Below, piece by piece: positions 26,807 through 32,217 of a DNA stretch of 64,000 bases; position 1 is the first letter of the stretch, and each line of letters starts with the position of its first letter. Below the pieces are notes generated by a model. The model searched no databases. It saw only the letters and a list, made by a program, of their open reading frames with translations, and was not told the DNA's origin. The stretch comes from Leptolyngbya sp. CCY15150. GTDB taxonomy: Bacteria > Cyanobacteriota > Cyanobacteriia > RECH01. The position numbers and the translations under genes were made by a program. Location of the stretch: positions 62,001-126,000 of the forward strand of contig NZ_JACSWB010000207.1 of assembly GCF_016888135.1 (NCBI RefSeq), read 5' to 3'.

Positions 26807-27190
26807 ATGGAATTCATGAGCCTTGATCCCCTGACCTCCGAACCTTCAGCCCTCGATGCTCCCGATGTAGCCCAACTGATGCCGGTCGAAGCGGTACAGC
26901 AGGCCATCGGGCGATCGCGGGCATCTGTCTATCGCTATGCCAATACGGATGCCAATGACCTCAATCCGCCCTATGACCCGAACCGGCTAAATCCTGAACT
27001 TCGCATGACGAAGGACGACCCGCTGATGTTCCATCCCAACGAAGTTGCCCGCTTTGCCAAGGATGTGCTGCGGCAAAATGTCACCATTCAGGTACAAGAA
27101 GCGCCGCCCAATGTCACCCACGATCTGCTGCGGGCCATCTTGCAAGAACTGCAAACCATTCGCCAGTTGCTGGATACTCCGTCATCCTAG
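26807..27190 (+). CDS. Small conserved protein with helix-turn-helix-like region
   Basis: 127 residues. Residues ~20-48 ([20 protein letters not shown], then VYRYANTD) look like a helix-turn-helix of the kind that opens resolvase or MerR-like proteins, followed by [10 protein letters not shown] and [14 protein letters not shown]. The C-terminal ~30 residues form a likely coiled coil ([16 protein letters not shown]). No catalytic motif. The start at 26807 or the Met four codons later (26816) is possible. Its stop overlaps the convergent rlmN stop by 4 bp. A DNA-binding role is inferred only from the fold-like pattern. Confidence 0.7.
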
Positions 27191-28248
27191 CTAGGGCTCG
27201 TGGAAGAATCAGCATTGGCCCGCAGTTGCCCGCAGGCCGCATCAGCCGCCAGACCACGCGATCGCCGGACGCTGACGGCAATGTGCTGCGCCTTGAGCGT
27301 ATCCATGAAGTCTTGGATGCGTTGAGGGCTGGGGCGCTGGTAGTCTACTTCCTGGATGGGATTGTAGGGAATGAGGTTGACATGGGTTTGGAAACCGCGC
27401 AGATGCTTGGCCAATTCCAAGGCATGGGAGTGGCAGTCGTTGAGTTCTGCCAGCAAAATGTACTCGAAGGTGACCCGCCGTCCGGTGCTATCGACATAGT
27501 CGCGACATTCATCGAGCAATTGCTCTAGGGGATATTGGCGAGCGCTGGGAATCAACGTTTCGCGCAGAGCTTGGTTAGAGGCATGGAGGCTGACGGCTAA
27601 CGTTGCCTGCAGGCGTTGCTCAGCCAACCTGCGGATGCGCCCCGGAATGCCCACGGTAGACACGGTGAGCGATCGCTGCCCAATTCCCACGTCTTCATTA
27701 AGCGATCGCACGCTATCGAGCACCACATCCACATTCAGCAACGGCTCGCCCATGCCCATAAAGACAACATTGCTGACCCGTTGCTCAAAATCTTCCTGCA
27801 CCGTCAGCACCTGATCGACAATTTCATGGCGATGCAGATTACGCAGAAAGCCGCCCTTGCCCGTGGCACAAAAGTCACAAGCCATAGGGCAACCCACCTG
27901 GGATGAAACGCAAACCGTCAGCCGCTTCCCCGAGGGAATGCCGACGGTTTCAATAATCTGTCCGTCCTCCATCCGCAACAGGTACTTCACCGTCCCGTCG
28001 GGAGCCGCCGAGCGATGGTGGATCTGCGATCGCCCCACGGGAATATCCGCCAGCTCACTGCGCCATTGTTTGGGAAATACGGACAGATCAGACAGCGATC
28101 GCCCACCTTGGTGATAGAGCCATTGATGCAGTTGCTTGGCTCGGTAGGCCGGCTGATTGTGTTGGGCCACCCAGTCGGTGAGTTCTGGTAAGGATGCACC
28201 GAGCAGCGGCGGTAGAGGAGATGGGCGATCGATCAAAGAAACAGACAT
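27187..28248 (-). CDS. rlmN: 23S rRNA/tRNA adenine-C2 methyltransferase RlmN
   Basis: A radical-SAM enzyme that methylates C2 of A2503 in 23S rRNA and A37 in some tRNAs. The diagnostic CxxxCxxC iron-sulfur motif is seen as CPMACDFC, followed by [18 protein letters not shown] is the SAM-binding GGE-like motif, and VSLHASNQ and [13 protein letters not shown] follow. The C-terminal region includes AADAACGQL, where a conserved Cys carries the methyl group. 353 residues from ATG 28248; longer frames to 28278/28287 exist without a better ribosome site. It is 88 bp downstream of the manganese exporter on the same strand, so it may share its riboswitch-controlled transcript. Confidence 0.95.
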
Positions 28249-28336
28249 AGCAACCGGGAATGGAGGGACGGTGGGCATCGTCCCCAAGGAGACAAGACCC
28301 AGTCTTTCTATTCTACGAGGTGGGGCGAAGGACGGA

Positions 28337-28954
28337 CTACCCTAAGCGGGTGGCGGCCACTCCAGCAAAGATCAAGAACAGGATGCCGCTCAAGAGGGTG
28401 ACCGTGCGCTCAGAAATCCGCCCGCAAATCGCCCGTCCGCCAATGACAGCGATCGCCGTACAGATGGCATGACCGAGGATCGCCCCGACCGTCACCCCCA
28501 AGGGATGCTTAGCAGCAGCGAGAGCAATAGTAGCAATTTGGGTGCGATCGCCCCATTCGGCAAGAAACGTTAGGCTGAACACCTCAAAGACGATCGCTAG
28601 AACACTGGGCTTAGGAGGGCTATTGGATTCCGCCCGAGCCACCGCCTCCATCGCTTCTCCCTCCTCACACCCATCAGCGATCGCCTTCATCCTCCAAGCG
28701 TCATACAACAGCTTGAGCCCAAAGCCCAAAAACAGCAGCACCTCTGCCCAGCGCACCAGCGAGGGAGGCAAGAGCGATACCACCTGCCCAAACAAGACGG
28801 AAAGCACCGTCATAGCAGCCAAGGCACCCCAAGCGCCCAGAAACACCAAGCGCCGCGAGTGCTTCATCGCCAAAATGACCGCAATGAAAAATGTCTTGTC
28901 TCCCAACTCGGAGACCGTAATCAATAACAATCCAGCCGTAAATGCTTCTAGCAC
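28337..28954 (-). CDS. mnx: UPF0016/Mnx-type manganese exporter
   Basis: A 205-residue membrane transporter of the UPF0016 (GDT1/TMEM165) family. In cyanobacteria this family exports Mn2+ from the cytosol, to the thylakoid lumen or outside, and protects against Mn toxicity. Both signature motifs are present: ELGDKTF in the first half and EWGDRTQ in the second, each on a membrane helix, with about six to seven hydrophobic helices overall. The GTG start at 28954 is preceded by AGAGGAG. The leader carries a yybP-ykoY riboswitch, which independently supports manganese as substrate. The symbol is by family role. Confidence 0.92.
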
Positions 28955-29165
28955 TATCTATCAAGCTCCTCTCGTAGTGGCTGTGAGCTTGATAGGAGAC
29001 TAGGCTTCACCAAGCTCACAGATGTTGTGAACTAAGTGAAGGTCTCGCTGATCGCAGGCCATGCTCGATAGCACGCCCTAGGATATCTCGAACCAGGTGA
29101 ATTACCAGTATGTTGATTCGAGAGCTTGGGGTTTTTCTCCCCAATAGCTACTCCCCTTCAAGTCT
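28955..29165 (-). promoter_or_regulatory. yybP-ykoY manganese riboswitch with translational expression platform
   Basis: Read on the minus strand, the leader has the hallmarks of the Mn2+-sensing yybP-ykoY aptamer in order: AAGGGGAGTAGC (complement of 29148-29159), TCAACATACTGGT (29104-29116) and GAGACCTTCAC (29035-29046). The outer stem is CTTGAAGG with CCTTCA. Downstream lie three interlocking segments. A (29011-29021) is the exact complement of the 3' part of B (28981-28991). The 5' part of B (28985-28995) is the exact complement of C (28958-28968), and C contains the Shine-Dalgarno of the exporter gene. A:B frees the ribosome site and B:C hides it, so an Mn-ON translational switch is predicted. 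Confidence 0.93.
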
Positions 29166-29477
29166 CCTATCTTATGAGCATAAGGAGGGAAAAGACAAGC
29201 TTTTGGTCGCTTCGTATGGTGCCAGCGCTCCCGCGTACCGGTCTTGATCGCTTCTGCGACTCTTAAGACTTAAAGATCTGGGCGCAGGAGCAACCCTGGG
29301 AGCATTCCCACGCATAGTATAGGAACGATATCAAATGCCAAAACTGGTATCAGCTAGGTGAAGCGCCCGGATCACCTTGGGGACAGGGTAGGTTCTCCAT
29401 CCCCCAGAACCTTGGCAGACTCCAGTATTATGTTGAAGTAATCAGGTCGTTTGTCTGTTCTTCATCCCCCAGGATTT

Positions 29478-30410
29478 ATGAAAGCTACCCGTCGCTCACT
29501 TCTTCTCACATGCCTAGCTGCCGTTGTTGCCCTATTGGTGATTGCCTGCAACACCACCACCTCCCAGTCCCCTGCCGATGGAGCTACAGCGACCATTCGC
29601 GTGGGTTCTAAAGATTTTACTGAACAGTTTATCCTGGGAGAAATGTATGCCCTAGCCCTAGAAAATGCTGATATTCAGGTCGAACGCAAGCTCAATCTAG
29701 GAGGCACACCGGTGGCTCAGGCAGCTCTGACCAGCGGCGAAATTGACCTTTATCCGGAATATACCGGCACAGGTTTGCTGACAGTGCTCAAACTGCCGTC
29801 CAGCAGCGATCGCCAAGCGGTCTACGAGACTGTGGTCACGGAATATGAAAGCCAGTTTGAGTTAACCTGGCTTGATCCATCGCCGATGAACAACACCCAA
29901 GCCCTGGCTATGACCCGCACTAAGGCAGAGGAGCTGAACATTACCAGCATCTCGGATATGGCTGCCCAGGCCAGCGACTTGGTTCTCATTGGGCCCCCTG
30001 AGTTTGAAGTTCGGGAAGACGGTCTACCGGGAATTCAGGCCGCCTACGGTAACTTCACGCTCAAGGAGTATAAGGCCGTGGATTCTGGTCTACGCTATAA
30101 GGGACTAGTAGACGGTGAAGCGGATGTGGTTGTAGCCTTTGGTACCGATGGCGAAATCAGCGCCTTTGATTTGGTCTTGCTAGAGGATGACCAAGAGCTA
30201 TTCCCGCCCTACCAAGTTGCTCCAGTGGTGCGCCAAGACGTCTTAGAGGCTAATCCTGCCATTGCTGATGCTCTGAATGCGATCGCTCCCCTGTTGACGG
30301 ATGAGGTGATGCAAGCTCTCAACTACGAGGTCAGCGGCAATCAGCGAGAGCCTTCGGATGTGGCCCGAGATTTTCTGGTCAGCCAAGGCATTCTTGCTGC
30401 CGATAGTTGA
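29478..30410 (+). CDS. Osmoprotectant ABC transporter substrate-binding lipoprotein
   Basis: 310 residues from ATG 29478 (AGGA just upstream). A lipoprotein signal (KATRRSLLL.., lipobox VIAC) anchors it to the outer face of the inner membrane. The mature part belongs to the OpuAC/OsmX-type binding proteins for glycine betaine, choline or carnitine: VGSKDFTEQFILGEM at the start, then GEIDLYPEYTGTG and a second lobe with EADVVVAFGTDG. It is the first gene of a three-gene operon with an ATPase and a permease. The ligand is inferred from the family only. Confidence 0.92.
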   Translation: MKATRRSLLLTCLAAVVALLVIACNTTTSQSPADGATATIRVGSKDFTEQFILGEMYALALENADIQVERKLNLGGTPVAQAALTSGEIDLYPEYTGTGLLTVLKLPSSSDRQAVYETVVTEYESQFELTWLDPSPMNNTQALAMTRTKAEELNITSISDMAAQASDLVLIGPPEFEVREDGLPGIQAAYGNFTLKEYKAVDSGLRYKGLVDGEADVVVAFGTDGEISAFDLVLLEDDQELFPPYQVAPVVRQDVLEANPAIADALNAIAPLLTDEVMQALNYEVSGNQREPSDVARDFLVSQGILAADS

Positions 30411-30559
30411 GCCAAAACTCAGAATCTTGCTGACATCAAGCTTGCTGACCTGGCAGGCCAGCCAATCCAACCCGTTCTCCATCCTAGTCAGCCAACACTA
30501 GCCACTAAACACTAGCCACCGATGATCGTCCTGGGGGTTAACCATGAGGCACAGCAGCC

Positions 30560-31522
30560 GTGAGTGCAATTCAATTTGATCAGGTTTTTCTGAAATTTCC
30601 CCAGGCATCCCGCCCTGCCGTCAACCACTGTAGCTTTACGGTGCAAGAGGGAGAACTGGTGGTGATCCTCGGGCCGTCGGGATGTGGCAAAACCACTCTC
30701 CTGAAGATGGTGAACCGTCTGTATGAACCCAGCCAAGGGTCGATTACGCTCTACGGTCGAGATATTCGCCGCATGAATGTCTCGAAGCTGCGGCAGCAAA
30801 TTGGCTACGTCATCCAGCAGTCGGGGCTGTTTCCCCATATGACCGTGGCCCAAAACGTGGCGGTGGTGCCAGAACTCCTGGGCTGGCCCAAGCCCAAAAT
30901 CCAAGCCCGCATTGATGAACTGCTGGCCCTCGTGAGCCTCACTCCCGGAGAATATCGCGATCGCTATCCCTCCCAACTCTCTGGTGGGCAGCAGCAGCGG
31001 GTGGGGCTGGCGCGGGCCTTGGCTGGCGATCCGCAGGTGATGCTCATGGATGAACCCTTTGGAGCCATTGATGCCATCACCCGAGCTGGTCTGCAGGATG
31101 AAATTCTTCGCCTCCAGCGGCAGCTCAAAAAAACCATTCTGTTTGTCTCCCACGACGTGGAAGAAGCCCTCCGGTTAGCCGATCGCATCTTAATTCTGCA
31201 GGAGGGCAAGATTGTGCAATACGACACGCCCTTTGCCGTTTTAACTCGCCCTGTGAATAGCTTCGTGCATGATCTCATGGGTGCGGATGACATGGTGCGC
31301 CAACTGCGGCTGCTGCGGGTGGAAACCGCCATGGTGCAGCCGCCCGATAATTACCACCACAATGGTCAACCCGCGATCGCTCCCCAAGATAGCCTTCGCC
31401 ATGCCCTGTCGCTGATTCTCAAAACCGGCGCGCCGCAACTGACCGTCTTGGATCAAGGAAAACCCATTGGCGTGCTCACCCTAGAACATATTCGGGACTC
31501 CGCTACCGCCGTTCAGGTTTAG
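30560..31522 (+). CDS. Osmoprotectant ABC transporter ATP-binding protein
   Basis: A 320-residue cytosolic ATPase. Walker A is GPSGCGKTT (~38-46), the signature LSGGQQQR, Walker B VMLMDEPFGAID, and the switch His in VSHDVEEA. The N-terminal ~240 residues are the nucleotide-binding domain of the OpuCA/ProV group. The C-terminal ~70 residues end in one CBS-like unit (LTVLDQGKPIGVLTLEHI), a known regulatory add-on in this group that senses ionic strength or nucleotide. GTG start at 30560 with a weak ribosome site, 149 bp after the binding-protein gene and 11 bp before the permease gene. Confidence 0.93.
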   Translation: MSAIQFDQVFLKFPQASRPAVNHCSFTVQEGELVVILGPSGCGKTTLLKMVNRLYEPSQGSITLYGRDIRRMNVSKLRQQIGYVIQQSGLFPHMTVAQNVAVVPELLGWPKPKIQARIDELLALVSLTPGEYRDRYPSQLSGGQQQRVGLARALAGDPQVMLMDEPFGAIDAITRAGLQDEILRLQRQLKKTILFVSHDVEEALRLADRILILQEGKIVQYDTPFAVLTRPVNSFVHDLMGADDMVRQLRLLRVETAMVQPPDNYHHNGQPAIAPQDSLRHALSLILKTGAPQLTVLDQGKPIGVLTLEHIRDSATAVQV

Positions 31523-31533
31523 CCAACTAGTTT

Positions 31534-32217
31534 ATGGACTATTTGTGGAACAATCCAGGCCAGGTCTGGGGCTACCTGCTCCAGCATCTGCAAATGACCG
31601 GCATAGCCCTAGCGATCGCCATTATGATTGCCGTGCCGCTCTCGGTGTTGATTGCCCGCAGTCGCTGGCTCACCGTGCCGGTCATGGGCACCCTCGGCAT
31701 CATCTACACCATCCCCAGCTTGGCATTGATTATCCTCTTGGTGCCGCTGCTGGGGCTCAATGCCCAGTCGGTGATTGCCGCCATGGTGCTGTACATTCAG
31801 GTGATTTTGGTACGCAATCTATCGGTGGCCCTGCAGTCCATTGATCCGGCCCTGATCGAAGCGGCGAAGGGCATGGGCATGGACATGGGGCAACGCTGGT
31901 GGCGCGTGCAGGTGCCCCTAGTGCTACCGATCTTTTTAGCTGGGGTACGGCTCTCGGCCATTGTTGCCATCGCCATCGCCACCATCGGAGCCAAGTTTGG
32001 ATCTGGCGGTCTGGGGGTGTTGCTGTTTGAAGGCATTGCCCAAGCCGGACGCTATGACAAAATTTGGGCCGGAGCGATCGCTGTCTCGCTCCTGGCCCTA
32101 GCCATCAACCTGGGTATTTTAGTCCTAGAGCGGATCACCACACCGCCGCCGCTGCGCAAGCATCAGCGCTCTCGACCAGCCAAGGTCTTAGAAACCTCTA
32201 ATATCCCAGAATCATGA
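31534..32217 (+). CDS. Osmoprotectant ABC transporter permease
   Basis: A 227-residue inner-membrane permease of the binding-protein-dependent type (OpuCB/ProW group) with about six hydrophobic helices. The conserved cytoplasmic loop that contacts the ATPase is seen as IEAAKGMGMDMGQRWWRVQVPL, the EAA motif (written in two parts: IEAAKGMGMD and GQRWWRVQVPL). The C-terminal tail is basic. It is the last gene of the operon. Only one permease gene is present, as expected if it works as a homodimer. Confidence 0.93.
   Translation: MDYLWNNPGQVWGYLLQHLQMTGIALAIAIMIAVPLSVLIARSRWLTVPVMGTLGIIYTIPSLALIILLVPLLGLNAQSVIAAMVLYIQVILVRNLSVALQSIDPALIEAAKGMGMDMGQRWWRVQVPLVLPIFLAGVRLSAIVAIAIATIGAKFGSGGLGVLLFEGIAQAGRYDKIWAGAIAVSLLALAINLGILVLERITTPPPLRKHQRSRPAKVLETSNIPES

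Follow-up and report, generated by a model that had tools for sequence, protein, structure and literature searches.

The leader of a predicted GDT1/UPF0016 (Mnx-type) cation exporter gene in Leptolyngbya sp. CCY15150 (minus strand, ~29162 to 28955 of the window, the whole 64,000-nucleotide stretch of DNA that was analysed) very probably acts as a translational ON riboswitch of the yybP-ykoY manganese class, in which the state of the aptamer helix P1 would be relayed to the ribosome-binding site through four downstream segments, Z, A, B, and C. Cyanobacteria require manganese for water splitting, and the metal is harmful in excess. Manganese export has been established for Synechocystis Mnx, a member of the GDT1/UPF0016 family (PMC7020235), and on this family relationship it is the predicted function of the product encoded in the window. 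The gene and its expression signals are as follows.

28337..28954, minus strand: predicted GDT1/UPF0016 (Mnx-type) cation exporter gene, 205 aa, GTG start at 28954, Pfam PF01169 matched in two stretches (E 6.2e-48)
28966..28970, minus strand: Shine-Dalgarno AGGAG, read from the sequence; AGGAGCTTG is common 5′ of the start codon in relatives
29169..29174, minus strand: probable −10 promoter element TAAGAT, visible in the sequence

The PF01169 match agrees with the earlier note, which had named the gene as an exporter of the Mnx type from the sequence alone, and both GDT1 domains carry the E-x-G-D-(K/R)-(S/T) motif (ELGDKT and EWGDRT in the translation). The window comes from a cyanobacterial genome, and among named relatives Leptolyngbya sp. 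DLM2.Bin15 is nearest (93% protein identity). The transcript probably starts near 29162, just outside P1, since many relatives (leaders L014-L093) have TATAAT-like boxes directly 5′ of GAAGGGG, with the spacing found in the window; the window's own −10 element is weak, and a consensus scan did not report TAAGAT at 29169..29174. An rlmN-type gene (27187-28337) lies on the same strand ~50 bases 3′ of the exporter gene and thus may share the riboswitch-controlled transcript. On the other side, a divergent operon for an OpuAC-type (glycine betaine) ABC transporter (29451-32217) begins ~290 bases from the leader.

The aptamer occupies the 5′ part of the leader and is composed of the following elements.

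29033..29166, minus strand: manganese riboswitch aptamer (yybP-ykoY type) with P1-P4 and loops L1 and L3, identified by covariance model R1 (see below), a partial RF00080 match and compensatory changes
29155..29160, minus strand: P1 5′ strand TGAAGG, pairing with 29042-29037
29147..29156, minus strand: L1 block GGGGAGTAGC; GGGGAGTAGCT in 144 of 156 leaders
29105..29116, minus strand: L3 block TCAACATACTGG, near-invariant across 156 leaders and containing UCA
29046-29036, minus strand: third conserved block GAGACCTTCAC
29037..29042, minus strand: P1 3′ strand CCTTCA, sharing bases with Z, from leader comparison and the consensus fold

As the earlier note had reported, the three yybP-ykoY blocks follow one another in order on the minus strand, and the signature blocks of the class, L1 GGGGAGUAGC and L3 UCAACAUACU, are both present in the window. 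The consensus fold of 40 leaders (RNAalifold) is the canonical P1 to P4 with L1 and L3 in place and has compensatory changes at 23 of its 34 aptamer pairs; in P1, GAAGG/CCTTC becomes GAAAG/CTTTC in several relatives. The manganese contacts of the Lactococcus lactis structure include U39-C40-A41 (PMC9190785), to which the UCA of L3 would be the counterpart.

A search with RF00080, proposed in the earlier note, succeeded in part: at a relaxed threshold the window gives a partial match (20.5 bits, model positions 47-85), and at the Rfam gathering cut-off (45 bits) it gives none. None of the 59 genomes covered, which comprise the window's own and those of relatives, passed the cut-off, and the best scored 42.8 bits (E 7.6e-10) directly 5′ of its GDT1 gene; matches in relatives fall at the same place as in the window. 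The well-known E. coli mntP and alx leaders (L230:1963-2071 and L231:2370-2504) also score below the gathering score (Rfam 15), so that the cut-off is uninformative as a test of membership, annotation that relies on it misses well-known members, and a missing RF00080 hit, which the earlier note took as grounds for refutation, cannot serve as such at this threshold. A covariance model, R1, was built from 40 diverse cyanobacterial leaders; it has a single match in the window's genome (87.2 bits, E 5.8e-21, the window being one of the 40 training sequences), and in E. coli its top matches within 8.5 kb are mntP (45 bits, E 1.3e-11) and alx (25.1 bits, E 7.3e-6). The E. coli leaders, both RF00080 members, share with the window L1, L3, the P1-P4 layout, a P1 beside GAGACC and exporter genes downstream, a likeness that R1 establishes for the aptamer and not for the expression platform. 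By its L1 and L3 sequences, P1-P4 architecture, homology and exporter context the leader is assigned to the yybP-ykoY manganese riboswitch class, and Mn2+ binding is predicted.

Four segments connect the aptamer with the start of translation.

29026..29041, minus strand: segment Z CTTCACTTAGTTCACA, overlapping the P1 3′ strand; its partner is A when P1 is unformed
29005..29021, minus strand: segment A CTGTGAGCTTGGTGAAG, partner of Z or B
28981..28995, minus strand: segment B CTATCAAGCTCACAG, partner of A or C
28958..28968, minus strand: segment C GAGCTTGATAG, overlapping the Shine-Dalgarno and sequestered when paired with B

The two 11-bp pairings described in the earlier note are exact: the core of A:B, CTGTGAGCTTG (29021-29011), pairs perfectly with 28991-28981, the full helix reaching 14 bp with two G-U pairs included, and 28995-28985 pairs perfectly with 28968-28958 to give B:C, in which C covers the final three bases of the Shine-Dalgarno (28970-28966). 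Shuffling the 100-base stretch 20,000 times gave at least one perfect 11-bp pairing in only 16 cases, and the window has two. Absent from that account was Z:A (29041-29026 with 29020-29005; 15 of 16 bp), a hairpin that almost all of 82 non-redundant leaders are able to form. The result is a chain of competition in which P1 and Z:A contend for shared bases, Z:A and A:B for A, and A:B and B:C for B; each helix thus excludes its neighbor, so that P1 and A:B occur together and leave the start site open, and Z:A and B:C occur together and close it. In one clade (L153, L159, L170, L182, and L184) C holds the start codon (GCATGA) in place of the Shine-Dalgarno, and B is changed to match (TCATGC). A fourth pairing, of the 5′ flank GATAGGAGACT with AGTCTCCTATC (11 bp), was rejected because it is missing in a close relative (L014) and covers the probable −10 box.

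The earlier note had presented A:B and B:C as mutually exclusive and had pointed to covariation among relatives as a check; they are mutually exclusive, and compensatory changes occur in relatives. When duplex energies of native segments were compared with those of segments exchanged between species (80 leaders, 5000 permutations), native pairing was stronger for Z:A (z −10.9), A:B (z −13.1), and B:C (z −11.8), with 0 of 5000 permutations as good, and the non-neighbors Z:B, A:C, and Z:C had no native advantage in the same test (z −0.9, 0.0, and +3.1). In an alignment of 69 leaders, the covariation score of Z:A, A:B, and B:C was in each case higher than in any of 500 shuffles, a comparison in which the shuffles leave the effect of relatedness in and the non-neighbor pairs are a partial control, and sliding the partners out of register lowered the score. 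On the alignment, B:C covaries least strongly, with 70% of cells paired. Z, A, and B also change jointly at one position, from U-A-U to C-G-C or C-G-U, a pattern that would be predicted only with A as a partner of both Z and B.

The leader precedes the GDT1 genes of 79 of 80 named relatives and 76 of 93 GDT1 genes sampled from further genomes of the class; the aptamer model matches in 142 of 291 class genomes and, at lower scores, in a few genomes elsewhere in the phylum, outside the class. Elsewhere the aptamer lies 5′ of MntP, TerC, and Na/Ca-exchanger family genes (L216, L222, L219, L220, and L221), not all of them within the class of the window; MntP, UPF0016, and TerC are manganese exporter families (PMC9334652). 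The Z/A/B/C platform is not tied to GDT1, since one MntP leader (L216) keeps it. In one genome, two equal-scoring aptamer copies (L225:354-529 and 1486-1661) flank a cytochrome-like open frame, by duplication or as an assembly artefact.

In the mechanism proposed, manganese would dock L1 on L3 and keep P1 closed, as the class suggests; closed P1 would take the first bases of Z, leaving the Z:A hairpin without its base, and A could then capture B immediately on its synthesis, ahead of the transcription of C. B would be unable to seize C, the Shine-Dalgarno would be free and the exporter would be translated, provided that A:B persists long enough for ribosome loading. With no manganese, P1 would stay open, the full-length Z:A would form, and B, left free, would pair with C and close the start site.

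P1 was enforced in folding as a stand-in for manganese binding, and part of the resulting shift is built into the test because Z overlaps P1: in transcripts ending before C, mean P(A:B) is 0.86 with P1 vs. 0.09 without (0.87 vs. 0.00 for the window RNA), and 75 of 79 leaders shift toward A:B with P1, none in the opposite direction. Folding thus agrees with the direction given in the earlier note, in which the bound aptamer favors A:B; its three-segment model was incomplete, lacking in Z the link to the aptamer. At full length, mean P(A:B) over all leaders is 0.32 with P1 vs. 0.002 without and only about half shift; equilibrium folding of the full-length leader shows no switch (start-site opening 0.16 vs. 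0.13). With P1 enforced on the window RNA at full length, P(A:B) is 0.08, and P1 with B:C (−83.2 kcal/mol) is ~6.6 kcal/mol better than P1 with A:B (−76.6 kcal/mol), a preference that contradicts an equilibrium reading of the switch. Because the finished window RNA favors the closed state even with P1, the choice is probably made during transcription or with the help of the ribosome; translation would be the regulated step, since a terminator scan found no terminator-like site in the leader.

These results make it unlikely that manganese simply shifts A:B against B:C at equilibrium, with Z playing no role. The two helices are each perfect over 11 bp and each covary, as such a switch would have it; however, it leaves A, B, and C without any segment that would tie them to the aptamer, Z:A is roughly as strong as A:B and covaries equally well, and A:B loses at equilibrium as described above. 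There is likewise little chance that a genuine aptamer works at the level of transcription or of RNA decay (by a terminator, by pausing, or by access for nucleases) and that closure of the start site is a secondary effect. The L. lactis member does control transcription, by way of P1.1 (PMC11087558), and the present leader also calls for a decision during transcription. Against such control stand the missing terminator-like site and the content of C, which holds the Shine-Dalgarno or, in the clade with L153, L159, and L170, the start codon, with B matching in each case. Rho is generally regarded as absent from cyanobacteria, which counts against it as well.

A leader that uses this fold mainly to sense something else, for instance alkaline pH or a different divalent metal, has its precedent in the mntP and alx leaders of E. 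coli, which answer alkaline pH and manganese, pH tightening manganese binding (PMC9603457); the near-invariance of the L1/L3 metal-site sequences and the presence of known manganese exporter families among the associated genes make this very unlikely here. Chance complementarity with no riboswitch, for which the missed RF00080 gathering score could be cited, is refuted with near certainty by an aptamer found in 142 of 291 class genomes, strong covariation and the rarity of even one such pairing in shuffled sequence.

The preferred reading, a P1-driven relay through Z, A, B, and C, resembles the L. lactis yybP-ykoY riboswitch, where manganese stabilizes the switch helix P1.1 in competition with a downstream pairing (PMC11087558, PMC9190785). 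In L. lactis, however, the competitor of P1.1 is a terminator hairpin, whereas in the window leader Z:A competes with P1 and the outcome is passed by A:B and B:C to the Shine-Dalgarno. The combination of riboswitch class and gene family was, as the earlier note said, already known in principle: Dambach (2015), as cited in PMC7380456, placed UPF0016/GDT1 genes under yybP-ykoY in 328 of 333 screened strains, as in the window, whereas PMC7380456 places an Anabaena member under ManS/ManR. A 2019 cyanobacterial review gives only ManS/ManR as established and describes the response to excess manganese as little explored (PMC7020235); a 2024 study of Mnx names only ManS/ManR as established (PMC11649195), and neither names a riboswitch for Mnx. 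The aptamer class, its UPF0016 link and P1-based switching are therefore known, while the class-wide relay looks undescribed in the open-licence literature, an earlier description elsewhere being possible.

There is a reasonable likelihood that an RNA sensor of manganese excess governs Mnx in a large part of the cyanobacteria by way of a conserved strand-exchange relay (P1, Z, A, B, and C), necessarily decided in transcription since the finished RNA favors the closed state, and that it has gone undescribed in cyanobacterial work citing only ManS/ManR. The relay yields distinct, individually testable mutations for a co-transcriptional translational switch. If the reading is correct, the exporter riboswitch would be the missing sensor of manganese excess in many species, one that annotation at the Rfam cut-off overlooks.
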